From assembly GCA_028554795.2 (NCBI GenBank), contig JAPYKE020000279.1, positions 124,001 through 188,000 on the forward strand: a stretch of 64,000 nt of DNA, given 5' to 3'. This stretch comes from Sinohyriopsis cumingii (Eukaryota; Mollusca; Bivalvia; Unionida; Unionidae). The notes beneath the pieces were generated by a model that worked only from the letters and a program-made list of their open reading frames with translations, was not told where the DNA came from and ran no database searches. A program made the position numbers and the translations under genes. Of this stretch, positions 1-64,000 are shown piece after piece. Position 1 is the stretch's first letter. Every line of letters starts with the position of its first letter.

Positions 1-356
1 CCAAAGATCGGGGCATGCTGATTGGTTTTAGTTTTGCGACTCAACTGCCTGTCCCCATTCTCGCTTGGACAGCTAATAGCTGCTTAATCATCGTACCTCT
101 CCTGCGCTTTTAAAGATACTGTATGAATAGCATGGTGGTATAGTTTATGTGTGCAGTTAGCTTTCATGGAAATCGCATGTAAGATACAAATGACGTTTCA
201 TACGCAATGCCAGCATCATTGGTAACAAAGTTGTAATAAAAACATAGCCATAAAATAAAAGATACAAGTCCTCTGTCTCCCCAGGATTCTTATGATCGTG
301 GTGAATCATGTGTTACCTCTCTTTCTATATCATTCTCTCTCAATCACTCTCTCACA

Positions 357-360
<4 letters not shown>

Positions 361-387
<27 letters not shown>
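361..387. repeat. (CT)n microsatellite, unit 1
   Basis: A pure CT run of 27 bases sits in a pyrimidine-rich stretch that begins near 315. It lies left of the RTE-like LINE remnant. Its length is the same in units 1-3 and two bases longer in units 4 and 5. Confidence 0.97.
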
Positions 388-639
388 CTTGTATATCATG
401 GAAATTGGTCCCGAAGCTCGAGATGATTAATGAAAATGAAGATCGTTGCCAAACGGTCAGTTTAACTATTTCGATGTCAAACGGCAATCAGTTCCAAAGT
501 AGAACCGTAAGAAAATAATTGTCACAGATAATAAGAACCAACATTTTTTGACATTGTTGCTAGTTTCATGGCGCATTTGCCTGAATTAAGCTGTCCATTT
601 CTTCTATGATTCATCAGAATTGTCTCGATCCTTGTTATG

Positions 640-1444
640 CTTGCCAATGCGAAAACTCATTGTCTAGGAGAATGTCCTGCCAACTTATCCTCTGTGTTTT
701 CTTCATGCAGCCAATGTGAAAATAGTTCAGCTTTTTGGCATGACGTCTGTATACCATTCGAATTTATCGTGCATACAGCAGGGTCGGCATTACAATAGCT
801 TTGTTGACATTTAGGCTTGTTTGCAGATTGATCCCTATGCGCTCTTCTAATTTGCTTATAGTCTGCCAAAGACCACATTTACTTGAGCCGTTTCGGTGTT
901 GCTTTCATCATAGATGTGAATTGCACCTGACAGTGTACTGCTGAGTTAGTTGAACTTATCCACTACCTCGAGAGTTTAGCCATTTTACTGTGATGGTAGG
1001 TTCTACATAAGGCTTTCCTGTTGTAGGTTGGTTTAGCACCAATGTCCTACTTATACTGATTGTGAGAGCAACACTGTTTCAAGCTGAAGCGAATTAGTCT
1101 ATACAAATATTGGTCCCAAGCCCGAGTCGTTCTGGAGGTTGGCCAGGATTTTTTTTTAGGGTGGCAAAACTTATCAGAAGGTGGAAATGGAGTCGTGAGA
1201 CTCAGAAAGAATATATTGTAGGGTCGGGGCCAAAAGAGGTTGGTAACCATTGCCATACATATTTTTGCATAACAGACACAGATTTGGGATTCAAGAACAG
1301 TCACTGTCTTTAACATTTTGCCTTTAGTCTCCTCCAACTGAATGGAATGCCATCAATTCGGTACCTGATATCAACCCTTTTGTCACAGCCACGGTAAGCA
1401 CCAGTAAGCATAACAGCGAACATCATACTGAAGAGGGGCTTCTT
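640..1444 (-). pseudogene. Decayed RTE-like LINE reverse transcriptase fragment, unit 1
   Basis: Reading the minus strand in changing frames gives a recognisable string of RT palm and thumb motifs. From the N-terminal side these are LFSMMFAVMLTGAYRGC, then RYRIDGIPFSWRRLKAK, LTISISRTLVLNQP, GKPYVEPTITV, LEVVDKFN, LSSTLSGAIHIYDE, NVVFGRL, SLNVNKAIVMPTLLYA, YRRHAKKLNYFHIGC and ISWQDILLDNE. These match the order seen in abundant animal RTE-type elements often annotated as 'endonuclease-reverse transcriptase' or 'craniofacial development protein 2-like'. The frame changes several times and contains stops. The region that should hold the YADD motif, about 1110-1310, is unrecognisable and looks replaced or expanded. 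No endonuclease or 3' tail was found. Clade assignment is from memory of motifs and is less sure than the RT identity. Confidence 0.82.
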
Positions 1445-2461
1445 TGACTTCTTTGGCGACTGGATGGTTCTGATACATCATTTTAACTTCCTTCATTTAC
1501 TGAATATCGCAACTACGAATTTTGTCTGGTTTAGTATCACGGAAATAAATTAATTTTCATTGTAATTATTAGCACTTTTTCACATTTTAGTAAAGGGCAT
1601 GACGCAATTATTTGTCCTCCAAAAGATAAATTATGGACTAAAATTATCATCTGTCTTCACCAAAGGTATATTATTCAGTTCGTACATTAAATAGGGTCTT
1701 CTTCTATGTTTATGCTGCAGCTCCTTATCTTATTTGGCTGGATGTTTTCATTTCTTCTAAAATAAATGACACACATGTAAAGCCTTGATGTAGTTTCAAA
1801 CATTACCCACCAGCCCCACCTCCTTCCTCAAACAGCGTTCAGCTATCGGGTGTATTTCATCTGGATGTTGAAGGATGGAACTTTGCTTTTATGACGAGAA
1901 ACCCTCTTGTTATAAAACTTTCCACCTACGTGTTTTATTAAAACCATTTCTATATTTCTTCAGATATCCTACCAAAGTTGTTATAAGCGACAACGACTAC
2001 TTTCTATCTTTTGTAAGCACCTGTACTGCATGATAATCAGTTTAAATTATCTTCTTGATACCAAATATTCTATATTGCTCATTTCTTATGAAAGTGGCCT
2101 TAAGTTCCAGGATCAGGTCAGTAAACAATATAAAGTAGCCATCTGGTCTAAATATTATTTGCATTTTGGTAGATTTAGAACAATATTTAATATAGTACAT
2201 ATACATATTTTAACACAGCCGTATAGCAGTGTTGGAGACAAACCAAGATAAGGATACATATTCTCTCTCCAATATTGATGGGATTTGTACCTGCGCACAA
2301 CGTTATGTGAAGATGCATCATTCAATCCTTGGCGACTTTAAAATGCCGACTACAAATCTTCAGTAATTCATTGAAGACGGTATATAACATCATATACTAG
2401 AAAAGGGTGCGACGTCCTAATTACAATAATGTACATTAAGGCTAACCTCAAGTATAAAAAG
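1445..2461. other. Unassigned AT-rich segment between the two LINEs, unit 1
   Basis: No gene or known element was recognised in this kilobase. It has a 73-codon open frame on the plus strand (2030-2251) with no familiar motif. A short exon-like stretch occurs near 1966-2015, preceded by a pyrimidine-rich run ending in CAG and followed by GTAAGC, but it could well be chance. The same segment lies at 16188-17204, 30931-31947, 45676-46692 and 60428-61444. It may be the old host target into which the I/Nimb-like LINE inserted. Confidence 0.6.
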
Positions 2462-2495
2462 GATTGATTGATTGATTGATTGTTTGTTTTTTAAC

Positions 2496-2527
2496 GGCGC
2501 ATCAGCACTGTTAGGCTATTTAGCGCC
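2496..2527 (-). promoter_or_regulatory. LINE 3' hairpin, unit 1
   Basis: On the minus strand GGCGC pairs with GCGCC across a 22-base loop that can itself form an AGC/GCT step. It sits just before the four-base tail. In I-group LINEs a conserved 3'-terminal structure of this kind is thought to be the site the reverse transcriptase recognises on its own RNA. That role is inferred here from position and shape. Confidence 0.7.
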
Positions 2528-2743
2528 AAACAAAGTGTTATTTGTATAATCTTTTAAAACTTATTAAAGGTCCTATATCGACCAGCGATATAAAAGAACA
2601 AATGGTTGAAATTAAAAACGGTAAGATGGTAACGGTGCAAAATAAAGCTTCCCGATCAACGGGAAATGTAGAAAAGATGAATAAGTATTAAAATGGGACG
2701 GTATATATATTGCATAAAACTGCACAAGGTGATAGCATAAAAG

Positions 2744-3613
2744 TCAGAGTTTAGAGTAAATATTTACGGCTTTCAGGAACTCTATAATACGAGTGATGTT
2801 TACAGTATCAAAAAGTTCTTTCATGCCATGCACTTTGTAATAACGATCGCGCGTAGGTTGTAGGTCAAAGCACTCTATCATAAAGTGCTTGACAGTGAAT
2901 GGTTCATTGCAAGAAACGCACTCTGGTGGGTCTTCACCTTTTAGTATGTGGGTGTGGGTGATAGAAGTATGACCAATTCGGATTCTTGCTATGACTATCT
3001 CCTCCCTACGAATGGTTCTGTAGGAAGGAGTCCATTCTCCTAGAGTTGGCTTGATTGCATGAAGTTTGTTATTCACGGCATCATTCCATGATGCCTGCCA
3101 CTTCTGACGAAAGAACTTTCTGATACAAGGTTTAAAATCAGTATATGGTATTTTAAAATCAGATGGTTCTTGAGTAAGGGCCATTTTAGCAGCGCGATCT
3201 GCTTTACCTTTAATGCCAATGTGGCTAGGTAACCAACAGTATATTATATTGTGGGAGACACTCAGCTCGGCATCTTTGAAGAGTATGTTTTTTAATAATG
3301 GGTTCTCCAGTTTTCTATTGTGTAGTGACTGGAGTCCTGATAGCGAATCGGAGAATATGATACTGTTTAAAATATGTTTCTTTTCTATATGTTGCAGAGC
3401 AAGGTCTATTGCTCTGATTTCGGCTGTAAAAATTGATGCTCCATTTGGTAAACGAACTTGCGTTGTATGATTTCCACAAACAAAGGCTGCAGCAACCTTT
3501 TCCTCATCCTTTGATCCTTCAGTGTAAATTCTGGTGTAGTTTTTAAATTCGGTGAGGAGTTCATCGTAAGAGTTGTGGAAGATAGAAGGGTTTGTTTCGG
3601 ATTTTTTTTCCAT
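2744..3613 (-). CDS. LINE ORF2 C-terminal part: RNase H plus CCHC, unit 1
   Basis: This 289-codon frame holds an RNase H type 1 domain, which would remove the RNA strand after first-strand synthesis. Visible active-site positions are E32 in YTEGS, where the family normally has Asp, E65 in FTAE, D89 in FSDS and the Asp of the KADRAAK segment. The motif that usually reads GNEKAD has lost Asn and Glu through a six-base deletion relative to units 4 and 5. Near the C-terminus CVSC followed by HFMIEC forms a C-x2-C-x7-H-x4-C knuckle, usual after RNase H in I-group LINEs. The Met chosen is only the first ATG after a frame break at an eight-A run. In an intact element this part would be continuous with the RT. 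Confidence 0.9.
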   Translation of the reverse strand: MEKKSETNPSIFHNSYDELLTEFKNYTRIYTEGSKDEEKVAAAFVCGNHTTQVRLPNGASIFTAEIRAIDLALQHIEKKHILNSIIFSDSLSGLQSLHNRKLENPLLKNILFKDAELSVSHNIIYCWLPSHIGIKGKADRAAKMALTQEPSDFKIPYTDFKPCIRKFFRQKWQASWNDAVNNKLHAIKPTLGEWTPSYRTIRREEIVIARIRIGHTSITHTHILKGEDPPECVSCNEPFTVKHFMIECFDLQPTRDRYYKVHGMKELFDTVNITRIIEFLKAVNIYSKL

Positions 3614-3697
3614 CGTGTAGCGTAAAACGTACTTTTGGTTGTTTAATTAGCCAGGGTGGTGTTTCGGAGATGGATGTTTTTTGAATTTTAGAAAGAT

Positions 3698-5086
3698 CTA
3701 TATTTGTAGTGTCAAGGCTGGATGATATTCTAATGCCAAAGGAAGGTATGGCGTTTGGTTTATTTTCGTATAAAGTTTTGTATTTGGTTGAAAAACAGCC
3801 GAGAAAGCAGGATTCAGAGGGTTTGATTTTAATTTGAGAGCATACTGTGCGGAAAGCATTTCTCTACGATGCGATAACGGTGGTTCATTCGCCTCAGCTA
3901 GAAGGCTTTCACACGGGGATGTTTTAAATGCTCCCAGAGCCAGTCTTATTCCCTGATGATGAATTGGATCAAGCATTTTAAGATACGATTTTCTGGCTGA
4001 ACCATACACAACGCAACCATAGTCCAGTTTGGAGCGAATAAACGTTCTGTATAAATTTAGGATGACTTTTCTATCAGCACCCCAGTCAGTGTGCGCTACT
4101 ACTTTAAGTAGGTTAAGTGCTTTTAAGCATTTAGCTTTTAAGTTCTTTAGGTGTGGAATAAAGGTCAGTTTTCTGTCAAAGATTATACCTAATAATTTGG
4201 TTTCCTCAACAACTGGAATAGGTGTTCCATCCAGCGTGAGGTTCGGTTCATCGTGATGTTTTCGTAACTGACAGAAATGCATGCATACAGTTTTTAATTT
4301 CGAGAATTTGAAACCGTTTGCATTGGCCCAATTTTGAATTTTGTTTATATTTTGCTGCAGTTGTCTTTCAATTGTATGCATGTGCTTTGACCGATAACAT
4401 ATTAGAAAATCATCAACGTATAAAGAGCAATCCACACCAGGAGTCAAACACTTGGTGATGCTATTAAGTTTGATGTTAAAGAGCGTCACAGATAAAATAC
4501 TGCCCTGGGGCACACCCATCTCTTGCTCGTGCAGATCGGAGAGGGTAGAGCCCACTCGTACTTTGAATTCTCTGTCTGAGAGGAAGTTGGATATGAAAGA
4601 GGGCAGACGGCCTTTTCGACCTAGATCGTTCAGGTCATTTAGTATCCCGTACTTCCATGTCGTGTCATAGGCCTTTTCTAAATCAAAGAAAACCGCTACT
4701 AAATGTTCTTTCTTAATAAATGCATCGCGAATAAATGTTTCCAGTCTAACCAGATGATCATTGGTGCTCCGGCCATATCGAAAGCCACTTTGGAAAGGAG
4801 ATATTAAATTGTTAGTTTCCAAATACCAGACAAGCCGAGAACTGATCATTCGTTCCATTGTTTTGCACACACAGCTTGTGAGTGCAATTGGTCGATAGCT
4901 GTTGGGGTCTTCGCTATCTTTACCGGGTTTGGGGACTGGTATTACAGTTGCTTCTTTCCAGATTTTTGGTACATTACCAGTAATCCATAAATCATTGAAG
5001 AGTTTCAAAAGAGATGTTAAAGATGATTCTGGAAGGTGTTTCAAAAACTGGTAATGTATTTCGTCAGGCCCAAGCGGAAGTATCAT
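3698..5086 (-). CDS. LINE reverse transcriptase, unit 1
   Basis: This 462-codon frame holds a non-LTR reverse transcriptase, which copies element RNA at the nicked target site. Motifs seen are SYRPIALTS (63-71), QSGFRYGRSTNDHL (99-112), motif A FFDLEKAYDTTW with D135, motif B GVPQGSILS (191-199) and motif C YVDD (223-226). The catalytic aspartates are intact. The thumb follows, with LLGIIFDRKLTF and LDYGCVVYGSA. The last 30 or so residues are out of frame because one base is missing near 3787 compared with units 4 and 5. The ATG used is internal: it lies next to a one-base break that separates the RT from the connecting region. Confidence 0.92.
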   Translation of the reverse strand: MILPLGPDEIHYQFLKHLPESSLTSLLKLFNDLWITGNVPKIWKEATVIPVPKPGKDSEDPNSYRPIALTSCVCKTMERMISSRLVWYLETNNLISPFQSGFRYGRSTNDHLVRLETFIRDAFIKKEHLVAVFFDLEKAYDTTWKYGILNDLNDLGRKGRLPSFISNFLSDREFKVRVGSTLSDLHEQEMGVPQGSILSVTLFNIKLNSITKCLTPGVDCSLYVDDFLICYRSKHMHTIERQLQQNINKIQNWANANGFKFSKLKTVCMHFCQLRKHHDEPNLTLDGTPIPVVEETKLLGIIFDRKLTFIPHLKNLKAKCLKALNLLKVVAHTDWGADRKVILNLYRTFIRSKLDYGCVVYGSARKSYLKMLDPIHHQGIRLALGAFKTSPCESLLAEANEPPLSHRREMLSAQYALKLKSNPLNPAFSAVFQPNTKLYTKINQTPYLPLALEYHPALTLQI

Positions 5087-5552
5087 GGGCCTTATCTAAA
5101 GCCTCCCTAAGCTCCGATAGTGAGAACAATTGATTATAACTTTCCGAGTTGTTGGATGTGAATTTTAAACGTGACTTTTCTTTTTGAGTTTTAAGTTTTC
5201 GGAAGGCTTCTGAATAATTAGATGATGAGGAATTTTTCGAGAAACTGTCAGCAAGAATATTTGCAATGTCACGTTTTGAACTAAAGTTGTTATTGTTCAG
5301 TGTCAGATGTCGGAGAGGGTTTTGTTTTCTCTTTCCGTTTATTTTGCGTATAGTGTCCCAAACTTTCTTAACAGAGGAACGAGAGTTTAAAGAAGAAACA
5401 TATTTCTTCCATGATGCTCTTTTACTTTCTTTGATTGTGCGGCGAGCTTTGGCCCGGACAATGCGATATATATTTAAGTTTTCGGGCGTCGGGTGATTAT
5501 TGAATTTTTTTAATGCTTCTCGGCGTTGCAGTATGGCTTCCTTACAATTCCT
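5064..5552 (-). pseudogene. LINE ORF2 connector between endonuclease and RT, unit 1
   Basis: A third reading frame on the minus strand is open for about 160 codons here and begins exactly where the endonuclease frame stops. It has a basic stretch (ARRTIKESKRASWKKYVSS), then VWDTIRKINGKRK and LREALDKAHDTSA. These are typical of the helical linker between endonuclease and RT in I-group and Jockey-group LINEs. One frame change separates it from each neighbour, showing that ORF2 was once continuous. It has no start codon of its own. Confidence 0.85.
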
Positions 5553-6420
5553 TAGTGAGCCAAGGTTTTAGGGTTCTTATACAGTTTGTTGAGGACTTGG
5601 GGATAGATTCTTCTGCAATGGCGGTTAAAATAGATGTAAAATGCTGAATGGGATCGTTAACATTGAAAACTGTATCCTCATTCAGCCTAGTTTTACAGAG
5701 TGTTTCGAACTTGGCCCAGTCGGCCTTCTTTAAATTCCATTGTGGAATTACTTCATCAATTGTAGAGTTATGATTTACAAGGGAGATTGGGAAGTGATCG
5801 CTGCTGTGAAGGTCATCAGCGACCTTCCATTCATAGTCCAAAAGCAGCGAAGGAGAACAAATTGTGAAATCGATGCATGTGTATGTACCCGTGCCTGGGT
5901 GTAAATATGTAGGTGTTTTGGTATTATATAGACACAGATCGTGTCTAGAAATAAGGTCTTCAACTTTGTGAGCTCTGTCACTTATATGATTCGATCCCCA
6001 TAAAATGTTATGGGCATTAAAATCCCCGAGTAAAACAAATGGCGCGGGAAGCTGTTGAACAAGGTCGTCTAATTCGTTTGGTACTAGGTTAGTGTTTGGT
6101 GGTAAGTAAATAGAGCAAAATGTAATCACTCGATGTAGAGTGACGCTTACAGCAATGGCTTGTAAATTGGTATTTAAATGAATGAAGCTATGAGGAGCTC
6201 TGTTGTTCACAATAACAGAAACTCCTCCTGATGCCCTATCAACATTTGGAGAGCAGGTGTTAAACAGGGAGTAGTTTTTAAATGTGATATTGTCCGTATC
6301 TTTCAAGAATGTTTCTTGAAGGCATAGTACCGCAGGATCATGTTCGTTTAAAAGCAGGAGAATATCATTGTAATTTGCTTTAAGTCCTCGACAATTCCAT
6401 TGTATGATAGTGTTTTTCAT
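5542..6420 (-). CDS. LINE APE-type endonuclease, unit 1
   Basis: This 292-codon frame holds an exonuclease-endonuclease-phosphatase domain that would nick target DNA to prime reverse transcription. The expected residues are all present: N9 in QWNCRG, E36 in LQETF, Y105 in SIYLPP, D133 and N135 in GDFNAH, D184 in CIDFTI, and the closing SSDHFP (206-211) with its Asp-His pair. The ATG at 6418-6420 lies 62 bases after the ORF1 stop and is very likely the true ORF2 start, since QWNCRGLK is the usual N-terminus. The frame stops early at KPWLTKEL because of a frame change into the connector. Confidence 0.92.
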   Translation of the reverse strand: MKNTIIQWNCRGLKANYNDILLLLNEHDPAVLCLQETFLKDTDNITFKNYSLFNTCSPNVDRASGGVSVIVNNRAPHSFIHLNTNLQAIAVSVTLHRVITFCSIYLPPNTNLVPNELDDLVQQLPAPFVLLGDFNAHNILWGSNHISDRAHKVEDLISRHDLCLYNTKTPTYLHPGTGTYTCIDFTICSPSLLLDYEWKVADDLHSSDHFPISLVNHNSTIDEVIPQWNLKKADWAKFETLCKTRLNEDTVFNVNDPIQHFTSILTAIAEESIPKSSTNCIRTLKPWLTKEL

Positions 6421-6482
6421 TATAAATTTAAATGAAAGATTGTGGAGCTAGGTTAGACCTTTCGCAGAGGGAATTTGTTTTG

Positions 6483-6791
6483 TTATTTATCTGGAGGAAG
6501 TACGGGGGTGAATTTTTTGTTTGTAGGTCTGGCGTTCCCTTGAGCGCATGGAGCAGATTCTTCTGCATCCATGCTCTCAATGTCTCCAAACCTGTTATAA
6601 AGTTTGATGGGGTCATCTGACCCCTTTTGTTGCCTGTTTCCATGAGATTTATTTTTGTTTTTTGGTGATTTAGGTTGCTGGGTATTGCTGAATGTAGTTT
6701 GTGTAGATGCCGTGTTTCTCTGTGATTGGTAATGAGGGGTGTTTGAGCTTGGTGTTGAATCGGGTGCTTCTGTTTGATGGTTCCCTTGCTG
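6483..6791 (-). pseudogene. LINE ORF1 C-terminal remnant, unit 1
   Basis: A 102-codon open stretch without its own start ends at a TAA 62 bases before the endonuclease ATG. It is rich in Gln, Asn, Ser, Thr and Pro, then basic (SPKNKNKSHGNRQQKG), and closes with an acidic segment (DIESMDAEES) and FTPVLPPDK. Composition and position fit the tail of an I-group ORF1, the nucleic-acid-binding Gag-like protein. The zinc knuckles expected further upstream are absent because the element is cut off near the (TAA)n tract. A unit 3 substitution inside it is silent in this frame, which mildly supports the frame choice. Confidence 0.7.
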
Positions 6792-6875
6792 TCACTTCAT
6801 TCAAAGGGTGTTGGAACTCTATTCATCACCATGGACACATTCAGAGTGTACCTTTTCATCAGAGAGAATGCAGTT

Positions 6876-6904
6876 ATAATAATAATAATAATAATAATAA
6901 TAAT
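6876..6904. repeat. (TAA)n microsatellite, unit 1
   Basis: A 29-base run of TAA steps lies at the broken 5' side of the I/Nimb-like LINE and at the left edge of the middle-repetitive block. It may be the tail of the latter. Its length is equal in all four complete units. Confidence 0.95.
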
Positions 6905-7440
6905 TAGAACTTTGTATAGCGCCTCATCTTTAGAAGCTCTAAGCGCTTTACAATATTAGACAACACCTATAAGATAAAAAAAACATATAATGAAATGATT
7001 ACAAAAACAAACACCATGAAATTAGAAAACATAAAAAACATGCTGAAAATATATAAGGTAGGAAACATTATTAGGCTTTAAGTTTGTTCTTGCAGTCGAA
7101 AGAAGTGAGTTTCGAGAGCACTCTTGAATGGGATCATTAATGAAATGATTACAAAAACAAACACCATGAAATTAGAAAACATAAAAAACATGCTGAAAAT
7201 ATTTAAGGTAGGAAACATTATTAGGCTTTAAGTTTGTTCTTGCAGTCGAAATAAGTGAGTTTTGAGAGCACTCTTGAATGGGATCACTGTGTCTTTGTGT
7301 CTAAGTTCAGTGGGCAATTCATTCGACGTTGCTGGGCCCTGGTATGCAAAAGAACGCTGTCCATATGTCTTTGTTTTCAAAGTGGGAATAATGAGTATAA
7401 ATTATTTAGTTATAAATATTTTGTAAGGATCAAATAGACC
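6905..7440. repeat. Middle-repetitive block next to (TAA)n, unit 1
   Basis: This block starts with TATAGCGCC and AAGCGCTTTACAA, which can pair as AGCGC/GCGCT across about 25 bases, directly after the (TAA)n run. It goes on through a segment that in the plus direction reads like a commonly dispersed invertebrate repeat (GGGCAATTCATTCGACG, AAAGAACGCTGTCCATATG). No protein was recognised. The family name is unknown to me. It contains the 150-bp duplication listed separately. Copies in the other units are at 21648-22183, 36391-36926 and 51143-51678. Confidence 0.55.
6991..7286. repeat. 150-bp tandem duplication, unit 1
   Basis: The segment starting TGAAATGATTACAAAAAC at 6991 recurs at 7141. The second copy runs to 7286, where the two diverge after GGATCA. 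Three substitutions separate them over about 146 bases: near 7050/7200, 7102/7252 and 7113/7263. The duplication therefore predates the amplification of the unit by some margin. Confidence 0.93.
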
Positions 7441-9121
7441 GCACACAACAACTCCTTCGTAAATGGGTTAGAATTCTCGACCACCGGCATCTAGGTAGAA
7501 TAAGAGATTTGATTATTGTGACAGTGGGCAAAAATATATAAAGTATGCTAAATAATGTACTCAGAGAATTTCCTTCTATTGAGTGTTGTTCACGTTAACG
7601 CCGTTATCGATCGATACACTGATTTTGATTTTGGTATTATTTATATTTTTCTGTGCATATAGCCATATAAAAATTCGTTACATGTGAAAAGTGATGATAT
7701 TTAGTGCGTGTAGACAATTTTGAATGATATGAAAGTCCAAGAGATGGAAGCTTACTAAAACAAGGTTAAGTAGATTGAGTTTATGACATGAATCGTTTCT
7801 CATTTAGTTGCATCTCAGTTAGTGATAACGAATATCTTAAGCTGACTATAGTCGTATGACATGAACTGACTGGACATTCCTTTCCACTGCCATTTGTTTT
7901 TCTTCAGGTTGAAACAATAGATGCATTAATTGAGAAAAGGAAGGAATGATTGTAATTTATAAAAGGAAATATAAATGCATTGATTCCGGTTTAATAATAA
8001 ATTAGTGATGTATATGTTCTTTTAAATGGTAATACAGACAAATGCAGTATAGTTGTTATACAAATAGTAATTAAATATATTTAATAGATCAAAAGATCAA
8101 AATGAGCATTTCAATATTTCTTATTCCCATACCAAAAAGCGAAATTTTTTAGAATGTTTTTGGAAGTAAGCAAAGGGCTTCGAATCTCATTGATCAGACA
8201 GTATTTGTAGCTAAAAGCAGGTAGAAATTAGACAAATTTTGAACTTTGAAATGTGATGGTATTGGGTCAACAATTTGGCCTCATTACTATCTCAGTGATT
8301 CCTATGTCTTTTTTTTCAATCCACAATGCCTAACAAGAAACTTAGATAACTAGGCGCTGAAATCGGTTTACTCTCTCTCTCTCTTTCTCCTCCGTGTGCT
8401 GAACGCACCCATACCTTCTAAGACTAAAAATTCACTCTAGCTTTGAGTTTTTGTACAGTTCCTTTGTATATGGCGCTTCGAACTGTTCTTAGATATCAAA
8501 CAAATACTTACAAAATTACCCGTGTGAAATATAAAATAACCGCATTGTTGACGGATAAATTTAAGAGGACAAGCGGAATACCATTGATGCACCTTCTGCT
8601 GTTAATCCATTTTTGTTCATCGTATTTCGTCATTACTGCCATTCATAAGTTGCATACATTTGGTCCATTATATCAATCAATAGTCAGATCTTTCATACTA
8701 AGCAAAAAAGTAGGATATGTTTCCAGAGTAACGTCGAAAATTAGCACTGTCTGAATCAACATGCAAAACAAGCCGCAATCAAGCTGAAATATGAATCAAA
8801 GGCTTTTTATGGTACAGTTTAATAAGGACATTTCTTAATTTTCGCCAACCCAAAAGTGTGCCGCACTAAGTTTTCAACGTTATAGTACATCATAAATATA
8901 GTGAATATTTACGAGAATTTGAAGTAGTTAGTTTTAAGATAGACATACTGATACATATTGGAGTAGTAGCACTCTGGCGACAACAATGACGCTCGGGCGA
9001 CAATGGGAACTAACATTACGCCTCTAGTTTGAAAACTAACACTCCCTCGTCAATTTAACATGAACCATATGTTTAACATTAGTATGACATTCTGACCTCA
9101 AGGGAAAGGATAATGTTGAAC
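7441..9121. other. Unassigned AT-rich segment, unit 1
   Basis: Nothing with recognisable coding content is visible in this 1.7 kb. It includes a short CT run at 8371-8384 and a 94-codon ATG-started open frame on the plus strand (8470-8754) with no known motif and no support beyond being open. Toward the right end occur two near repeats of GGCGACAA (about 8978 and 8997). It is probably old host DNA or an eroded element. Equivalent segments are 22184-23864, 36927-38607 and 51679-53359. Confidence 0.6.
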
Positions 9122-10038
9122 ATGTCCATGTGTTAAATGAGCATCAGTATTTACAAAGGGGAAATGCAATGTTCAAACCACGTCTACTAACCAATGCAAA
9201 CTTTTGACTGAGCAACATACATTCATCTTCTGAGTCACACCAACATTTACTAACCATCACGCCGCTTAAACTCACCAGCACCTAATCTCCACTTGAACAA
9301 CACATACTCACGAACATGCCGTTTTGGTTGCCCAAACCCAAACTTATTAATAAACGACAAAGCAATGGGATGCTAACACATACACACAACCATCCATGAA
9401 AGGGTAGAAATGATCATGCACACACATCAACAGAAGCAGCCATGAATAGCAGTACTGCTCATATACTGTATATAGAAACATATTTAATTACTATCGTACA
9501 TCTAGTGAAAGGAAAGAAATATGTAAGAGTGCTTTCATATATATACAAAGTTACTAATATATCTCTAAAGGGTAAGATTATCCATTCACTATGCACACAA
9601 ACTTGCTACCACACTAAAGGCAACGGGCATTCATACACAAAACACATATAGTTATATCCTGATTTGAGTGGGACGTCGTTTAGGCCACCAAGTTAATAGT
9701 AATCCCTACGCATTATTTGTCCTACATAAAACCCACCTTGGATAAGAAAAGAACATATTTAGAAGGAACTGACCTTGCCGTTCTGAAGTATTGGTTGCAT
9801 CAAAATCAATGAAAGATATCCAGTATTCGACAGCAGTGTCTTGGTATTTAATCGGAACTATACAGTATTGTGCTGACATGCTATTACACCGAATGCATAC
9901 AGACATACATAATGATTGTAGAGAATTATGTCACCAACAGAAAACGTAGTACTTAAACAAATGACCCCAAACTTAGATAATCTGATTATAAGAGGTAATT
10001 CTGGAGTTGTTTAATACATTTCGAGTATCCATAGTCGA
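9122..10038. repeat. Direct repeat A, left flank of the Gypsy fossil, unit 1
   Basis: This 917-bp segment begins ATGTCCATGTG and ends CCATAGTCGA. It matches 13755-14673 with about ten substitutions and a two-base length difference near 9451, roughly 1% divergence. It is not an LTR: it lacks TG...CA ends, and the real LTR lies inside the A/A' pair. Left of it the sequence is unrelated to that left of A'. A small open frame (9706-9906, minus) is present in both copies. Confidence 0.95.
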
Positions 10039-12773
10039 CTCCATGGACTGCTTGAGGGCCGAATGAGGCCTTGCTCTAGCATTTCATCCAATATTGCTTT
10101 TACCTCTTTCCGTTGCGCGAAAGGTATTCTATATGGCCGTTGTTTAATTGGTGTCTCCGAAGTTGTCTTTATACTGTGAGTTAAGATGTTTGTTCGACCA
10201 GGCCTAGTTGTTAGAACATCCTGAAATTCATTGCAAAGATTTCTAATATCCTCTCGTTGGTCTTTTGTCAAGTTTACCCCCAGCTTAACGCCAGCATCAC
10301 CTTCACCTGCTCTTGGAGGAAAGTCAATATCCACACCATCGTTCTCGTCTGCCTTCGTCGCCAGCAGCACAGCACGCTTGTATCCACGCAGCAAGTTTAT
10401 ATGATAGGTAACTGTACCGCGCCTACCGGGTACAGATACCTGGTAGTTAACATCGTTTACCTTCCGGACCACACGATAAGGTCCCTGCCATTGTGCCTTC
10501 ATCTTGGACGAACTTGATGGCAAGAGAATGAGGACTTCATCTCCAGGACTGAATTCTCGTGTTTTCGTGTGACGATCATACAGTGCCTTGATTTTCTTTT
10601 GGCGATCCAACAGATTATCTTTGACAAGAGCCCCGATGTCAGCCAACTTCTCACGCATTTTCACAACATTCTCCACAGTTGACTTCCTTACATCTTCCTC
10701 TCCTGTAAACAAGCCTTGTAAAATCTGCATTGGCCCCCTAACTGGCCAACCATACATCTCTAAGGGTGCAAATCCAGTTTCCTCATGTGGGACTTCGCGG
10801 TATGCAAACAACAAAAATGGCAACATCTCATCCCATTCATTCTTGTTGTCTATACAGAACTTCCGCAACATTGACTTCAAGGTCCCGTTAAAACGTTCTA
10901 CTTTTCCATTTGCTTGCGGGTGATACGGCGTTGTTGTAACTCCACGAATACCCACTAGTTCATACAGCTGTTTCAATAAGGTGCTAGTGAAGTTGGTCCC
11001 TTTGTCTGTTAATATGACCCTTGGAAAACCAACACGGCTAAACAGCTCAATCAGTGCTCTAGCTACATTAGTTGCCTCCATATCCTTCAAAGGAAAAGCT
11101 TCGGGATACCTCGTTGCATCATCAACAACCGTCAGAATGTATTTGCGTCCAGACTTCGTTCTAGATAACGGTCCAACAATATCCATTGCAATTTTTGAGA
11201 ACGGTTCTGTTATCACCGGTGGGCATACCAGTGGTGCTTTCTCACCTGCAGTCTGTTTTGCTGTCATCTGGCATTCATGACACGATGTACAATATCTTTT
11301 TACATCGGAAAACATTCCAGGCCAAAAGAACGATTGGAGAATCCTCTCTTTTGTTTTCTCCAAACCCAGGTGACCTGCAAGGGGTCGATCATGTGCCAGC
11401 TCCATTACCATTTTCCGTAATCCTGCTGGTACAACTATTTGCTCCCCTCCATGTGAACCATCACCAGATTGCCATTTCCGTCGCAAAATATCATTCTCCC
11501 AGAAGAATGCCATTGGCTCCTCCTCAGCCTCTTCACGAGTAGCAAAGGACTTCTCTCTAATACTTTGCAGTGAAATATCCGCAATCTGTAGTTTCGACAA
11601 CATGTCCGCATTCATTGCTGAAAGTTCGTCAACTTCAATGTCATCACGCTGATCAGGATCTTCTGTCTCGATGCTGTTGTTGACAAAGTCATTCTTACCC
11701 TCATGCTCACATTGATCAGTATTTTCCACAGCCCTCTCATCGTCGAGTCCTTTTAACATCGACCTCGTAACAACAAATGACCCTTTCTTGCTAAGTATAT
11801 CCATCCCCAATAGGGCTTCAGCGGCTAGATTTGAAACAAGACCCACTTGCGCTGGTCCCTTATAATATGTAGTGTCGATATTTACCACAGCCAACTGTGC
11901 GGTAAATGGCTGACCCACTGCTGTGTATAACTTAACCTTGTGCCCCTCCAGCTTGCAACTCTCATCAACAAGATCTTCTCTTATCAAGGCCATATCTGAT
12001 CCAGTGTCCTTCACAAACATGATCTCGCGCCCATTCACACATCCTGTTTCTGAAATAAACTTTTCACCAATTGTTGGCTTAACAAAACAAGTTGCCGGAT
12101 TGCCACGATATTTCATGTCATCTGTTGGACAATACCTTGCAATATGTCCCCATTGTTTGCATCGATAACATTGCCTATTCTTCTGCTTGGACTGGTCTTT
12201 TATCGATGTTAGTTTTGCTTGCTGCTGTAAGTTCTGACAATTCATCTTGTTACTATTTACATTTATATTTTGATGAAACTTAATCCGCTGCCCTTGCTGT
12301 TGTAAATTTGTGGGAATATAATCTTCCGCGGCCTCTACGACTGGACTAGAGCCCTTGTTCCTCCTAATCCACTGTGCTTGATCTTGTGGCAAGGCTTTCA
12401 AGAAAAATTCCTCACGAAGACAAATAACTGGGTCATGATCTTCCAAGAAACGCTTTATGTGCTGATCAATCCTGGCCATCAGACCACGATACGTCTCAGT
12501 GCTTTCCTTCTTCATGCTCAACAGTGCCGTGAAATGTTCATGCGGTCTCTTTCCAAAACGATCAATCAGTCCTTTCCTGAGTTCCAGGTAATCACCACAA
12601 GCTTGAGTTGCAACATATCTAGCCTCCCCTGTCAACAGAGTTCTTAGCTGTAATACTTTCAACTCGTCAGACCAATTGGCATGTTTTGCAATTGATTCAA
12701 ACTCTGCCAGGAAAGTCACAATATCCTCTCCTCGTTCATGGTCATATGCATGTAGCTTTACTTTTAATGGCAT
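10011..12773 (-). CDS. Gypsy fossil Gag-protease-integrase-partial RT frame, unit 1
   Basis: This is a 920-codon frame. Residues 1-150 form a capsid-like region; the stretch FFLKALPQDQAQWIRR (123-138) followed by a Glu/Asp-rich helix closely resembles the vertebrate SCAN domain, which is known to descend from Gmr1-like Gag. A C-x2-C-x4-H-x4-C knuckle lies at 202-215. The aspartic protease has DTGSD (256-260) and LLGMDIL (321-327). The integrase has a His-Cys zinc region (about 461-501), a catalytic triad D531, D590, E626 with the 35-residue spacing between the last two, and a GPY/F-type module (WQGPYRVV, 762-769). Residues 851-912 match the start of a reverse transcriptase. The final codons are read from flank A and are not part of the element. 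Confidence 0.92.
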   Translation of the reverse strand: MPLKVKLHAYDHERGEDIVTFLAEFESIAKHANWSDELKVLQLRTLLTGEARYVATQACGDYLELRKGLIDRFGKRPHEHFTALLSMKKESTETYRGLMARIDQHIKRFLEDHDPVICLREEFFLKALPQDQAQWIRRNKGSSPVVEAAEDYIPTNLQQQGQRIKFHQNINVNSNKMNCQNLQQQAKLTSIKDQSKQKNRQCYRCKQWGHIARYCPTDDMKYRGNPATCFVKPTIGEKFISETGCVNGREIMFVKDTGSDMALIREDLVDESCKLEGHKVKLYTAVGQPFTAQLAVVNIDTTYYKGPAQVGLVSNLAAEALLGMDILSKKGSFVVTRSMLKGLDDERAVENTDQCEHEGKNDFVNNSIETEDPDQRDDIEVDELSAMNADMLSKLQIADISLQSIREKSFATREEAEEEPMAFFWENDILRRKWQSGDGSHGGEQIVVPAGLRKMVMELAHDRPLAGHLGLEKTKERILQSFFWPGMFSDVKRYCTSCHECQMTAKQTAGEKAPLVCPPVITEPFSKIAMDIVGPLSRTKSGRKYILTVVDDATRYPEAFPLKDMEATNVARALIELFSRVGFPRVILTDKGTNFTSTLLKQLYELVGIRGVTTTPYHPQANGKVERFNGTLKSMLRKFCIDNKNEWDEMLPFLLFAYREVPHEETGFAPLEMYGWPVRGPMQILQGLFTGEEDVRKSTVENVVKMREKLADIGALVKDNLLDRQKKIKALYDRHTKTREFSPGDEVLILLPSSSSKMKAQWQGPYRVVRKVNDVNYQVSVPGRRGTVTYHINLLRGYKRAVLLATKADENDGVDIDFPPRAGEGDAGVKLGVNLTKDQREDIRNLCNEFQDVLTTRPGRTNILTHSIKTTSETPIKQRPYRIPFAQRKEVKAILDEMLEQGLIRPSSSPWSRLWILEMY

Positions 12774-12782
12774 TGAAGATGT

Positions 12783-13106
12783 TTATTCAGTCGTGTTTTC
12801 TTGACGTTTTACTTTTTCTAACTCAATTTCCAAACGCTTCATTTCTAATCTTAATTTCTTTCTTTCCGTTTCCCATTCAAACTCCTGTCTTAATTCAAAT
12901 TCTCTTTCATTTTTCTTTGCGCTAGTTTTTCGCTTTGTTTCCTTGGGTGGTTGCATGTGCTCAAGGTTAAGTTCCTCTTCATACTCCATAACTTCATTAT
13001 CTGTAAATTCCATCAAATTCTGTGCTGCCGCTTTTCTTCGTGGTCGTCCTGAAGCAACCGTGGCTCCCTCAACTTCGACATCATCAGCAACCGACATAAT
13101 GACCAA
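12783..13106 (-). CDS. Gypsy fossil Gag N-terminal coiled-coil frame, unit 1
   Basis: This 107-codon frame lies directly upstream of the main Gag frame. Its first half is acidic with a basic patch (SGRPRRKAAAQ). Its second half is a highly charged Glu/Lys/Arg/Leu helix with heptad-like spacing (RLEMKRLEIELEKVK), as often found before the SCAN-like capsid in Gmr1-like elements. It has no enzymatic motif. Confidence 0.75.
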   Translation of the reverse strand: MVIMSVADDVEVEGATVASGRPRRKAAAQNLMEFTDNEVMEYEEELNLEHMQPPKETKRKTSAKKNEREFELRQEFEWETERKKLRLEMKRLEIELEKVKRQENTTE

Positions 13107-13393
13107 CTATATGTACGTACTGTAAGTTCTATCACTGTATTCACAGCCACTGGACTAGCTTTAATTATCTACGAGTTTCTGGGCTTACACGTGTACACTC
13201 GTTACAGTGATACACACTTTGCACTTAGCAATTAACAACTGTACGTTATACACACAGTACAACCAGTCACTGCTAATATCACAGATTCACTGAATTCACA
13301 GCTTTCAGAATTGTCAAACACAATTCCAACGTATTGAAAAAAATTCCAAATAATTCACACAGGATTTTGGAATCCGTACCGCTGCCACCAAAA

Positions 13394-13754
13394 TGTTACA
13401 TTCGGGTTCAAAGGACACACAAACACCAAGTAAGGGTCCTACAACTTTATGTAAAATAAAGCTAAAATCTTAAAAAATAAACTAGAAAAAAAGTGTTCAT
13501 TACAGTACCAAGCCCAGCTAAAAACTGCTTGCTCTATCACTCTGCTCTTGTTTTAGTAAGGGTTAGACACATGGAATTCTAATTAAATTAACATTTGTGC
13601 CTTATCCAGGCCCAGATAGCCATGGGAAGATAAACAACAGCACTGAACCTGTTGACAGTCTCTGGTATCAAATATCCAGAATGCTGGGAATAATGTTCTG
13701 CTGTCACTACTAACAATTAGATTCTGCTAGAATATGATACAGGCCCTTATAACA
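13394..13754 (-). repeat. Single LTR of the Gypsy fossil, unit 1
   Basis: This 361-bp segment has perfect five-base inverted ends (TGTTA...TAACA), so it starts TG and ends CA as LTRs do. Its inner end abuts the primer-binding-like site after a three-base spacer. Its outer end abuts flank A'. No second copy of it is found anywhere in the unit. Confidence 0.88.
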
Positions 13755-14673
13755 ATGTCCATGTGTTAAATGAGCATCAGTATTTACAAAGGGGAAATGC
13801 AATGTTCAAACCACGTCTACTAACCAACGCAAACTTTTGACTGAGCAACATACATTCATCTTCTGAGTCACACCAACATTTACTAACCATCACGCCGCTT
13901 AAACTCACCAGCACCTAATCTCCACTTGAACAACACATACTCACGAACATGCCGTTTTGGTTGCCCAAACCCAAACTTATTAATAAACGACAAAGCAATG
14001 GGATGCTAACACATACACACAACCATCCATGAAAGGGTAGAAATGATCATGCACACACATCAACAGAAGCAGCCATGAATAGTGTTGTACTGCTCATATA
14101 CTGTATATAGAAACATATTTAATTACTATCGTACATCTAGTGAAAGGAAAGAAATATGTAGGAGTGCTTTCATATATATACAAAGTTACTAATATATCTC
14201 TAAAGGGTAAGATTATCCATTCACTATGCACACAAACTTGCTACCACACTAAAGGCAACGGGCACTCATACACAAAACACATATAGTTATATCCTGATTT
14301 GAGTGGGACGTCGTTTAGGCCACCAAGTTAATAGTAATTCCTACGCATTATTTGTCCTACATAAAACCCACCTTAGATAAGAAAAGAACATATTTAGAAG
14401 GAACTGACATGGCCGTTCTGAAGTATTGGTTGCAGCAAAATCAATGAAAGATATCCAGTATTCGACAGCAGTGTCTTGGTATTTAATCGGAACTATACAG
14501 TATTGTGCTGACATGCTATTACACCGAATGCATACAGACATACATAATGATTGTAGAGAATTATGTCACCAACAGAAAACGTAGTACTTAAACAAATGAC
14601 CCCAAACTTAGATAATCTGATTGTAAGAGGTAATTCTGGAGTTGTTTAATACATTTCGAGTATCCATAGTCGA
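13755..14673. repeat. Direct repeat A', right flank of the Gypsy fossil, unit 1
   Basis: This 919-bp partner of repeat A starts immediately outside the LTR and ends CCATAGTCGA, after which the sequence continues into the spacer (TTAGAGAACAATG). Repeat A instead continues into the Gypsy element at the equivalent point. The A' copies looked the same in all four full units. Confidence 0.95.
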
Positions 14674-14738
14674 TTAGAGAACAATGATATGTAGAAAATG
14701 GCAATTTTCTTTAGCACAGCATCAACGAATTTTGTAAA

Positions 14739-14760
14739 CATGCCCAAAGATCGGGGCATG
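14739..14760. other. Hairpin across the unit 1/2 boundary used here
   Basis: CATGCCC and GGGCATG form a perfect seven-base stem around an eight-base loop, at the right end of the 70-bp spacer that follows A'. Its role is unknown. It resembles neither an LTR end nor a known transposon terminus. Confidence 0.7.
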
Positions 14761-59337: not shown

Positions 59338-59341
<4 letters not shown>

Positions 59342-59370: not shown

Positions 59371-59372
<2 letters not shown>

Positions 59373-59622: not shown

Positions 59623-60427
59623 CTTGCCAATGCGAAAACTCATTGTCTAGGAGAATGTCCTGCCAACTTATCCTCTGTGTTTTCTTCATGCAGCCAATGT
59701 GAAAATAGTTCAGCTTTTTGGCATGACGTCTGTATACCATTCGAATTTATCGTGCATACAGCAGGGTCGGCATTACAATAGCTTTGTTGACATTTAGGCT
59801 TGTTTGCAGATTGATCCCTATGCGCTCTTCTAATTTGCTTATAGTCTGCCAAAGACCACATTTACTTGAGCCGTTTCGGTGTTGCTTTCATCATAGATGT
59901 GAATTGCACCTGACAGTGTACTGCTGAGTTAGTTGAACTTATCCACTACCTCGAGAGTTTAGCCATTTTACTGTGATGGTAGGTTCTACATAAGGCTTTC
60001 CTGTTGTAGGTTGGTTTAGCACCAATGTCCTACTTATACTGATTGTGAGAGCAACACTGTTTCAAGCTGAAGCGAATTAGTCTATACAAATATTGGTCCC
60101 AAGCCCGAGTCGTTCTGGAGGTTGGCCAGGATTTTTTTTTAGGGTGGCAAAACTTATCAGAAGGTGGAAATGGAGTCGTGAGACTCAGAAAGAATATATT
60201 GTAGGGTCGGGGCCAAAAGAGGTTGGTAACCATTGCCATACATATTTTTGCATAACAGACACAGATTTGGGATTCAAGAACAGTCACTGTCTTTAACATT
60301 TTGCCTTTAGTCTCCTCCAACTGAATGGAATGCCATCAATTCGGTACCTGATATCAACCCTTTTGTCACAGCCACGGTAAGCACCAGTAAGCATAACAGC
60401 GAACATCATACTGAAGAGGGGCTTCTT
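59623..60427 (-). pseudogene. Decayed RTE-like LINE RT fragment, unit 5
   Basis: This copy is the same as in unit 1, with no difference noticed. It is non-functional. Confidence 0.82.
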
Positions 60428-61478
60428 TGACTTCTTTGGCGACTGGATGGTTCTGATACATCATTTTAACTTCCTTCATTTACTGAATATCGCAACTACG
60501 AATTTTGTCTGGTTTAGTATCACGGAAATAAATTAATTTTCATTGTAATTATTAGCACTTTTTCACATTTTAGTAAAGGGCATGACGCAATTATTTGTCC
60601 TCCAAAAGATAAATTATGGACTAAAATTATCATCTGTCTTCACCAAAGGTATATTATTCAGTTCGTACATTAAATAGGGTCTTCTTCTATGTTTATGCTG
60701 CAGCTCCTTATCTTATTTGGCTGGATGTTTTCATTTCTTCTAAAATAAATGACACACATGTAAAGCCTTGATGTAGTTTCAAACATTACCCACCAGCCCC
60801 ACCTCCTTCCTCAAACAGCGTTCAGCTATCGGGTGTATTTCATCTGGATGTTGAAGGATGGAACTTTGCTTTTATGACGAGAAACCCTCTTGTTATAAAA
60901 CTTTCCACCTACGTGTTTTATTAAAACCATTTCTATATTTCTTCAGATATCCTACCAAAGTTGTTATAAGCGACAACGACTACTTTCTATCTTTTGTAAG
61001 CACCTGTACTGCATGATAATCAGTTTAAATTATCTTCTTGATACCAAATATTCTATATTGCTCATTTCTTATGAAAGTGGCCTTAAGTTCCAGGATCAGG
61101 TCAGTAAACAATATAAAGTAGCCATCTGGTCTAAATATTATTTGCATTTTGGTAGATTTAGAACAATATTTAATATAGTACATATACATATTTTAACACA
61201 GCCGTATAGCAGTGTTGGAGACAAACCAAGATAAGGATACATATTCTCTCTCCAATATTGATGGGATTTGTACCTGCGCACAACGTTATGTGAAGATGCA
61301 TCATTCAATCCTTGGCGACTTTAAAATGCCGACTACAAATCTTCAGTAATTCATTGAAGACGGTATATAACATCATATACTAGAAAAGGGTGCGACGTCC
61401 TAATTACAATAATGTACATTAAGGCTAACCTCAAGTATAAAAAGGATTGATTGATTGATTGATTGTTTGTTTTTTAAC

Positions 61479-61510
61479 GGCGCATCAGCACTGTTAGGCT
61501 ATTTAGCGCC
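61479..61510 (-). promoter_or_regulatory. LINE 3' hairpin, unit 5
   Basis: Both five-base stem arms are intact. Confidence 0.7.
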
Positions 61511-61726
61511 AAACAAAGTGTTATTTGTATAATCTTTTAAAACTTATAAAAGGTCCTATATCGACCAGCGATATAAAAGAACAAATGGTTGAAATTAAAA
61601 ACGGTAAGATGGTAACGGTGCAAAATAAAGCTTCCCGATCAACGGGAAATGTAAAAAAGATGAATAAGTATTAAAATGGGACGGTATATATATTGCATAA
61701 AACTGCACAAGGTGATAGCATAAAAG

Positions 61727-62602
61727 TCAGAGTTTAGAGTAAATATTTACGGCTTTCAGGAACTCTATAATACGAGTGATGTTTACAGTATCAAAAAGTT
61801 CTTTCATGCCATGCACTTTGTAATAACGATCGCGCGTAGGTTGTAGGTCAAAGCACTCTATCATAAAGTGCTTGACAGTGAATGGTTCATTGCAAGAAAC
61901 GCACTCTGGTGGGTCTTCACCTTTTAGTATGTGGGTGTGGGTGATATAAGTATGACCAATTCGGATTCTTGCTATGACTATCTCCTCCCTACGAATGGTT
62001 CTGTAGGAAGGAGTCCATTCTCCTAGAGTTGGCTTGATTGCATGAAGTTTGTTATTCACGGCATCATTCCATGATGCCTGCCACTTCTGACGAAAGAACT
62101 TTCTGATACAAGGTTTAAAATCAGTATATGGTATTTTAAAATCAGATGGTTCTTGAGTAAGGGCCATTTTAGCAGCGCGATCTGCTTTTTCGTTACCTTT
62201 AATGCCAATGTGGCTAGGTAACCAACAGTATATTATATTGTGGGAGACACTCAGCTCGGCATCTTTGAAGAGTATGTTTTTTAATAATGGGTTCTCCAGT
62301 TTTCTATTGTGTAGTGACTGGAGTCCTGATAGCGAGTCGGAGAATATGATACTGTTTAAAATATGTTTCTTTTCTATATGTTGCAGAGGAAGGTCTATTG
62401 CTCTGATTTCGGCTGTAAAAATTGATGCTCCATTTGGTAAACGAACTTGCGTTGTATGATTTCCACAAACAAAGGCTGCAGCAACCTTTTCCTCATCCTT
62501 TGATCCTTCAGTGTAAATTCTGGTGTAGTTTTTAAATTCGGTGAGGAGTTCATCGTAAGAGTTGTGGAAGATAGAAGGGTTTGTTTCGGATTTTTTTTCC
62601 AT
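61727..62602 (-). CDS. LINE ORF2 RNase H part, unit 5 (full motif)
   Basis: This 291-codon frame shares the full GNEKAD motif, the Pro at residue 72 and the Tyr in GHTYITHT with unit 4. It has the usual Phe near the C-terminus (IIEFLKA). Confidence 0.9.
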   Translation of the reverse strand: MEKKSETNPSIFHNSYDELLTEFKNYTRIYTEGSKDEEKVAAAFVCGNHTTQVRLPNGASIFTAEIRAIDLPLQHIEKKHILNSIIFSDSLSGLQSLHNRKLENPLLKNILFKDAELSVSHNIIYCWLPSHIGIKGNEKADRAAKMALTQEPSDFKIPYTDFKPCIRKFFRQKWQASWNDAVNNKLHAIKPTLGEWTPSYRTIRREEIVIARIRIGHTYITHTHILKGEDPPECVSCNEPFTVKHFMIECFDLQPTRDRYYKVHGMKELFDTVNITRIIEFLKAVNIYSKL

Positions 62603-64000
62603 CGTGTAGCGTAAAACGTACTTTTGGTTGTTTAATTAGCCAGGGTGGTGTTTCGGAGATGGATGTTTTTTGAATTTTAGAAAGATCTATATTTGTAGTG
62701 TCAAGGCTGGATGATATTCTAATGCCAAAGGAAGGTATGGCGTTTGGTTTATTTTCGTATAAAGTTTTGTATTTGGGTTGAAAAACAGCCGAAAAAGCAG
62801 GATTCAGAGGGTTTGATTTTAATTTGAGAGCATACTGTGCGGAAAGCATTTCTCTACGATGCGATAACGGTGGTTCATTCGCCTCAGCTAGAAGGCTTTC
62901 ACACGGGGATGTTTTAAATGCTCCCAGAGCCAGTCTTATTCCCTGATGATGAATTGGATCAAGCATTTTAAGATACGATTTTCTGGCTGAACCATACACA
63001 ACGCAACCATAGTCCAGTTTGGAGCGAATAAACGTTCTGTATAAATTTAGGATGACTTTTCTATCAGCACCCCAGTCAGTGTGCGCTACTACTTTAAGTA
63101 GGTTAAGTGCTTTTAAGCATTTAGCTTTTAAGTTCTTTAGGTGTGGAATAAAGGTCAGTTTTCTGTCAAAGATTATACCTAATAATTTGGTTTCCTCAAC
63201 AACTGGAATAGGTGTTCCATCCAGCGTGAGGTTCGGTTCATCGTGATGTTTTCGTAACTGACAGAAATGCATGCATACCGTTTTTAATTTCGAGAATTTG
63301 AAACCGTTTGCATTGGCCCATTTTTGAATTTTGTTTATATTTTGCTGCAGTTGTCTTTCAATTGTATGCATGTGCTTTGACCGATAACATATTAGAAAAT
63401 CATCAACGTATAAAGAGCAATCCACACCAGGAGTCAAACACTTGGTGATGCTATTAATTTTGATGATAAAGAGCGTCACAGATAAAATACTGCCCTGGGG
63501 CACACCCATCTCTTGCTCGTGCAGATCGGAGAGGGTAGAGCCCACTCGTACTTTGAATTCTCTGTCTGAGAGGAAGTTGGATATGAAAGAGGGCAGACGG
63601 CCTTTTCGACCTAGATCGTTCAGGTCATTTAGTATCCCGTACTTCCATGTCGTGTCATAGGCCTTTTCTAAATCAAAGAAAACCGCTACTAAATGTTCTT
63701 TCTTAATAAATGCATCGCGAATAAATGTTTCCAGTCTAACCAGATGATCATTGGTGCTCCGGCCATATCGAAAGCCACTTTGGAAAGGAGATATTAAATT
63801 GTTAGTTTCCAAATACCAGACAAGCCGAGAACTGATCATTCGTTCCATTGTTTTGCACACACAGCTTGTGAGTGCAATTGGTCGATAGCTGTTGGGGTCT
63901 TCGCTATCTTTACCGGGTTTGGAGACTGGTATTACAGTTGCTTCTTTCCAGATTTTTGGTACATTACCAGTAATCCATAAATCATTGAAGAGTTTCAAAA
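62550..64000 (-). CDS. LINE reverse transcriptase, unit 5, partial
   Basis: The frame is open to the right window edge, so its N-terminal part is outside. It is of the unit 4 type, with the in-phase C-terminal connector. Private changes are Ile for Asn in motif B's following helix (TLFIIKINS) and Lys for Asn before WANANGF. Confidence 0.9.
   Translation of the reverse strand, partial: LKLFNDLWITGNVPKIWKEATVIPVSKPGKDSEDPNSYRPIALTSCVCKTMERMISSRLVWYLETNNLISPFQSGFRYGRSTNDHLVRLETFIRDAFIKKEHLVAVFFDLEKAYDTTWKYGILNDLNDLGRKGRLPSFISNFLSDREFKVRVGSTLSDLHEQEMGVPQGSILSVTLFIIKINSITKCLTPGVDCSLYVDDFLICYRSKHMHTIERQLQQNINKIQKWANANGFKFSKLKTVCMHFCQLRKHHDEPNLTLDGTPIPVVEETKLLGIIFDRKLTFIPHLKNLKAKCLKALNLLKVVAHTDWGADRKVILNLYRTFIRSKLDYGCVVYGSARKSYLKMLDPIHHQGIRLALGAFKTSPCESLLAEANEPPLSHRREMLSAQYALKLKSNPLNPAFSAVFQPKYKTLYENKPNAIPSFGIRISSSLDTTNIDLSKIQKTSISETPPWLIKQPKVRFTLHDGKKIRNKPFYLPQLLR

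Follow-up and report, generated by a model that had tools for sequence, protein, structure and literature searches.

Alpha-satellite higher-order repeats and human 'composite' arrays of transposable elements (TEs) are large tandem units that were built up out of smaller ones and are kept uniform block by block. The array analysed here, which fills a stretch of 64,000 bp in the genome of the freshwater bivalve Sinohyriopsis cumingii (the window), resembles them in both respects, but its unit grew by the insertion of TEs, whose target-site duplications (TSDs) can still be read. The relevant parts of a study on the subtelomeric heterochromatin of rye report that the tandem repeats pSc200 and pSc250 expand together with adjacent TEs, and that the junctions between TE and monomer fit low-homology joining (PMC4857426). 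Joint expansion and junctions with little homology are also seen at our locus; the rye TEs, as presented in those parts, adjoin the arrays, whereas in our array a 6-kb monomer has received whole or cut TEs, it is this loaded unit that recurs in tandem, and older and younger states coexist. For Lathyrus sativus, sections of another study describe satellites that arise from tandem parts of long terminal repeat (LTR) retrotransposons (PMC7004042). A part of a retrotransposon has likewise turned into a tandem array in our case, with a unit of 4.638 kb; in the L. sativus cases covered by those sections the source repeats lie inside the element, whereas here tandem growth started from a segment of an older satellite that had been duplicated on either side of a cut element. 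A review describes the insertion of TEs into satellite DNA arrays, including that of TEs into TEs, and its passages on such insertions contain no account of captures that follow one another, every loaded unit being amplified in turn (PMC12628747). Co-amplification of TEs with tandem repeats and the presence of TEs inside satellite arrays are already known, and it is the completeness of the series found here that is unusual; narrow literature searches gave no match, and none of the general satellite and TE papers listed by wider ones names our array, which is a weak negative result. We consider it highly probable (roughly 0.8) that a macrosatellite monomer captured mobile elements stepwise, and that the new units were re-amplified by unequal exchange.

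The window corresponds to positions 124001-188000 of contig JAPYKE020000279.1 (C279; 592,351 bp) in a genome assembly of 2.9 Gb and 1,138 contigs. The sequence examined on this contig comprises positions 1-240,000 (20 stretches of 10 kb and the window) and the last 1,000 bp. As recognised in an initial annotation made from the sequence alone, which counted 4.3 or more head-to-tail units of 14,743-14,752 bp throughout the window, the latter is filled by 4.34 such units: shared 24-mers peak at offsets of 14,743 and 14,752, and a 40-mer taken from position 1 repeats at 14,744, 29,487, 44,230 and 58,982. The successive units measure 14,743, 14,743, 14,743 and 14,752 bp and are followed by a partial unit of 5,019 bp; no inverted recurrence of any 24-mer was found in the window. 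Units 1 and 2 differ by a single substitution in 14,743 bp, the very site count given by the initial annotation, units 2 and 3 by 11, units 3 and 4 by 27 plus 3 indels, and units 4 and 5 at 5 sites over the 5,019 bp of the partial unit. The array extends beyond the window, the first 240 kb and the last 1,000 bp of C279 both being array sequence. Such a succession of head-to-tail units over a long stretch is the arrangement of a macrosatellite. One unit is composed as follows (positions in the window):

1..14743, no strand: tandem unit 1, whose phase is arbitrary (units 2-4 start at 14744, 29487 and 44230; partial unit 5 covers 58982-64000)
1..2463, no strand: U1, a base-monomer piece with a TC microsatellite at 334-387 and about 98% identity to the element-free monomers of C279:1-70 kb
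2450-2463, no strand: left copy of the TSD, AAGTATAAAAAGGA, of a long interspersed nuclear element (LINE), at the end of U1
2464..6776, minus strand: LINE with endonuclease, reverse transcriptase (RT) and RNase H in broken frames, and a (CAAT)n 3' tail at 2464
6777..9121, no strand: M, a base-monomer piece with (ATA)n at 6876-6904 and a 150-bp tandem duplication at 6988-7286
9122..10038, no strand: Xa, the first copy of the base-monomer piece X (about 920 bp), fused to the gypsy RT at about 10038/10039, a junction with 218 exact matches genome-wide
10039..13754, minus strand: truncated gypsy element without its 3' part and 3' LTR; it contains integrase and the beginning of RT, with weaker matches for protease and zinc-knuckle
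13394-13754, minus strand: gypsy 5' LTR, 361 bp, TG..CA
13755..14673, no strand: Xb, the second copy of X, adjacent to the 5' LTR where the gypsy had inserted (ATGTC); this junction (LTR/X) has 225 exact matches genome-wide
14674..14743, no strand: J, a base-monomer piece that joins X to the next U1; the X/J junction has 652 exact matches genome-wide

The pieces M, X, J and U1 also exist without the two elements. At C279:1-70 kb, 11 successive X-J-U1 segments devoid of LINE and gypsy belong to tandem units of 6.03-6.2 kb, whose pieces are the same as those of the 14.74-kb unit and in which X is single. The larger unit holds an older monomer that is itself tandem at C279:1-70 kb, which is the organisation of a higher-order repeat. 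Because the element-free monomer is tandem in the same contig, the composite was not built from debris first and made tandem afterwards; transposon debris, which the initial annotation took as the starting material of the array, has to be abandoned in this role, both main elements being secondary insertions with TSDs. The description of the unit as a patchwork of three retroelements stands, loosely, for the LINE and the gypsy, which are recognised by Pfam, and falls short for the third, a minus-strand frame at about 7230-7470 in M, next to the 150-bp duplication, whose C-terminal likeness to CR1/L2 elements is presumed by us and which has no Pfam match. Judged by match coordinates, some element-free monomers are without one copy of this duplication (6.03 versus 6.18 kb).

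High homogeneity alone would fit the concerted evolution of an expressed or selected tandem gene family, or of a functional RNA array. We rejected this candidate and regard it as very improbable: no Pfam match (E up to 1) was obtained with the 6 base-monomer frames tested of the 22 listed (at least 55 aa), neither an Rfam match (E up to 1) nor a tRNA (ARAGORN) was found in positions 1-15,000, and the domains that were found are those of retroelements, with the LINE frames broken. A 95-aa frame (L009:398-685) gave PDB matches at chance level only (E 0.54 and 0.87). The array thus appears to be without a selected function.

The LINE carries endonuclease, RT and RNase H in this order, each above its Pfam cut-off, in separate broken frames at about 2.7-6.4 kb on the minus strand; it is probably of the I/Jockey type with RNase H. 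A longer copy is found in the 16.57-kb unit that starts at C279:95172, where the element lies between two copies of AAGTATAAAAAGGA, the left one preceding the (CAAT)n tail and the right one following the LINE 5' end; at the equivalent site of the element-free monomer this sequence is single. This repeat is a 14-bp TSD, and both the TSD and the simple-repeat 3' tail expected of a LINE are present. The window unit equals the 16.57-kb unit less about 1.8 kb, made up of the 5' part of the LINE and 351 bp of flanking monomer. In one unit (C279:75-87 kb), the LINE itself contains a DNA-transposon-like element of 2,400 bp (C279:79271-81670; L016/L017), with terminal inverted repeats CACTGG[T/A]CAACA (11/12), TAT on both sides and a 447-aa frame that has no Pfam match; by its look it is presumably a CACTG-type DNA transposon. 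Spacings of 18.98 kb on contig C117 match the size of a 16.57-kb unit plus the 2.4-kb element, a correspondence of size alone.

The gypsy element of the window is recognised by a 923-aa minus-strand frame at 10.0-12.8 kb, in which integrase scores above its Pfam cut-off and protease and zinc-knuckle below theirs; the frame reaches the start of RT and then enters other DNA. A copy with two LTRs lies at C6:123.7461-123.7517 Mb, between M and X. Its flanks read GTGTC and ATGTC, the empty monomer reads GAACATGTCC, and the flanks are a 5-bp TSD with one difference. Ty3/gypsy elements have short TSDs of 4-6 bp. In the two-LTR copy, RT and RNase H, in different frames, follow the integrase. Integrase upstream of RT is the order described for the Gmr1 clade in the pertinent parts of two studies (PMC6238403, PMC8220671), and the element has this Gmr1-like domain order. 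Aligned with the 5' LTR of the window over 359 positions, the 3' LTR of the C6 copy shows 9 differences; the C6 copy's own 5' LTR, examined over 201 bp, is identical to that of the window. The unit with the two-LTR copy also contains the LINE, so that the gypsy either entered a LINE-bearing unit or met the LINE by exchange; two X/J spacings near this copy are 17.3 and 17.5 kb. The 920-bp direct repeats around the window gypsy were tried as its LTRs and rejected, X being single in element-free monomers, the LTR measuring 361 bp and X abutting it. The observed/expected CpG ratio is 0.08 in the gypsy LTR (13394-13754), whereas the six remaining pieces of the unit have values of 0.59-0.79; in so short an LTR this may be due to chance.

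X stands on both sides of the window gypsy, the two copies being identical at 909 of 923 positions. The junction between X and the gypsy RT has 218 matches genome-wide (junction counts are of exact matches only), with none for the reversed control, and LTR/X, on the other side of the gypsy, has 225. These numbers are so close that few gypsy copies of the array can have another left end, and at least one copy in the difference is the two-LTR copy on C6. The source sequences share about 1 base at the X/RT junction. That the counts of 218 and 225 are so similar suggests, without proving it, that nearly all gypsy copies of the array go back to a single exchange, an event that would account at once for the missing gypsy 3' part and for the doubling of X. 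Xa and Xb differ in letters at several variable columns, Xa is close to the X of some LINE-bearing, gypsy-less units on C117, and in 3 of 11 gypsy-less LINE units the Xa-type indel is joined to an Xb-type right part of X.

The exact junctions also indicate how the family is distributed, places being taken from the first 100 matches listed per junction, seemingly in contig order. The X/J junction, which marks the monomer, was found 652 times, a number that would correspond to about 3.9 Mb of base monomer, and U1/LINE 147 times. The first 100 of these 147 U1/LINE junctions yielded 95 LINE-to-LINE spacings within five contigs, 85 of which fit a small set of unit sizes: 33 of 16.57 kb, 25 of 14.75, 12 of 11.8, 4 of 16.42, 3 of 11.94, 2 of 10.12, 2 of 18.98, and 4 of a unit plus n x 4.638 kb. 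The 10.12-kb unit equals the 14.75-kb one minus 4.63 kb of X and gypsy. At C6:124.023-124.125 Mb, sites follow each other at a spacing of about 4,638 bp, with one exact site missed, and X and gypsy alone are present where examined. This array ends in a gap of 100 N at a gypsy copy (L029:4312-4411, C6:124.128 Mb), and is therefore probably longer than assembled. X/gypsy spacings at C117:769-809 kb alternate between about 4,633 and 4,509 bp, perhaps reflecting a second, shorter X+gypsy variant. Among the matches listed, the family occupies two regions of C6 (167.9 Mb), at 123.73-124.13 and 130.72-130.83 Mb, and is also present on C28, C56, C117, C163, C279 and C601; none of the listed exact junctions lies on C1-C5 or C7-C27. 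A head-to-head inversion was seen at C6:130.831 Mb (L030:3182-3185), where minus-strand U1 meets plus-strand X with an overlap of a few bases. The array is internal to a large scaffold and is accompanied by an inversion and a gap, which suggests that the region is heterochromatic and perhaps pericentromeric.

These data bear on the reading that the assembler simply repeated one composite copy. The lone base that separates units 1 and 2 would suit such an artefact, as would the signs that the assembly is strained here, with C279 starting and ending inside the array and C6 carrying the 100-N gap at a gypsy copy; however, the unit-specific variants are ordered, several unit types occur on C6, C56, C117, C163 and C279, and the junction counts range from 147 to 652. 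The initial annotation had argued from the ordered variants against simple duplication of one read set, and the sharing of the same junctions by different unit types on several contigs also makes an artefact unlikely; we find it scarcely credible.

Further insight into the dynamics of the array comes from U1, of which 2,150 bp were compared in 19 of the 23 copies of C279:1-240 kb, the 4 copies cut by stretch ends being left out. Differences amount to 0-7 among 9 element-free copies and to 0-4 among 9 element-bearing ones, versus 28-36 between the groups, while a border copy (75499) differs from the element-bearing group at 9-11 positions. Element-free and element-bearing blocks are each uniform separately, with greater homogeneity within than between blocks. 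Together with the ordered unit-specific variants, this agrees with the earlier proposal of a macrosatellite-like array of a composite unit that was recently amplified or homogenised.

We propose the following course of events. The starting point would have been a very large macrosatellite with the base monomer of 6.03-6.2 kb. The LINE would have inserted into one monomer, creating the 14-bp TSD, and LINE units of 11.8-11.94 kb would then have spread. The gypsy with Gmr1-like order would next have entered X and generated its 5-bp TSD, unit length rising to about 17.3-17.5 kb. By illegitimate exchange, the X end of a unit without the gypsy may then have been joined, at about 1 shared base, to the RT of another unit that carried it; this would have removed the 3' part of the gypsy and placed X on both sides, producing the 16.57-kb units, of which the 14.74-kb type seen in the window would be a version with a 1.8-kb deletion. 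Both copies of X could thereafter have served as sites of out-of-register exchange, resulting either in the loss of the gypsy (10.12-kb and some of the 11.8-kb units) or in X+gypsy arrays (4.638 kb). Unequal exchange or gene conversion would have multiplied the new unit types and made each block uniform.

The amplification could also have proceeded by rolling circle, with units or X+gypsy being excised by recombination between X copies, copied as concatemers and re-inserted as uniform runs. Exchange between two X copies would free a 4.6-kb circle, and both the long uniform run of about 4.638 kb at C6:124.023-124.125 Mb and the near-identical neighbours in the window fit this process. However, single contigs carry more than one unit type (14.75 kb along with 11.8 and 10.12 kb on C117; 16.4-16.6 kb along with 4.638 kb on C6), and the matches listed fall on a single large scaffold and on smaller contigs, as would be expected of local exchange; circles are still compatible with both observations. 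The initial annotation had held that the sequence does not choose between the two routes. This is true in so far as circles are compatible with the data, and less so in that the Xa/Xb mosaics (3 of 11, 1 of them clean) and the 4.638-kb array fit out-of-register exchange at X. We favour unequal exchange, which is not proven, and consider rolling-circle copying unlikely as the main route, though it may have played a part.

Several points weigh against stepwise capture with unequal exchange as set out above. The order of LINE before gypsy rests on one two-LTR unit and on runs with the LINE only. The search for the exact X/gypsy junction finds that junction only, and its 218 matches alone are not proof of a single origin. 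Among the 11 gypsy-less LINE units, L036 alone is a clean mosaic with an Xa left and an Xb right part; X238064 and L039 have a mosaic X in which one more Xb-type letter stands towards the left end, L038 is a partial mosaic, and the other 7 have interleaved or other letters, as is possible in a gypsy-free ancestor. Ten of the 95 LINE spacings fit no unit size and, the sizes being drawn from the same data, the fit of the other 85 describes rather than tests the set. The 4.638-kb array could also have arisen through a rolling-circle step, and copy number depends on the assembly.

The origin of longer satellite units is usually inferred from end products alone. Here, a single assembly contains the monomer still empty, both successive insertions, the second of them with two LTRs, the truncated gypsy with X duplicated, units devoid of gypsy and a smaller, derived satellite, and the readable TSDs together with this full series make both the order of the steps and the idea of capture-driven amplification testable. 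More tentatively, and at rather long odds, the array might be the pericentromeric or centromeric satellite of the C6 chromosome, its unit being renewed by serial element capture; the captures, above all the duplication of X, would have sped out-of-register exchange, with the loaded unit displacing the older one. If so, the array would constitute a layered, datable record of element activity.

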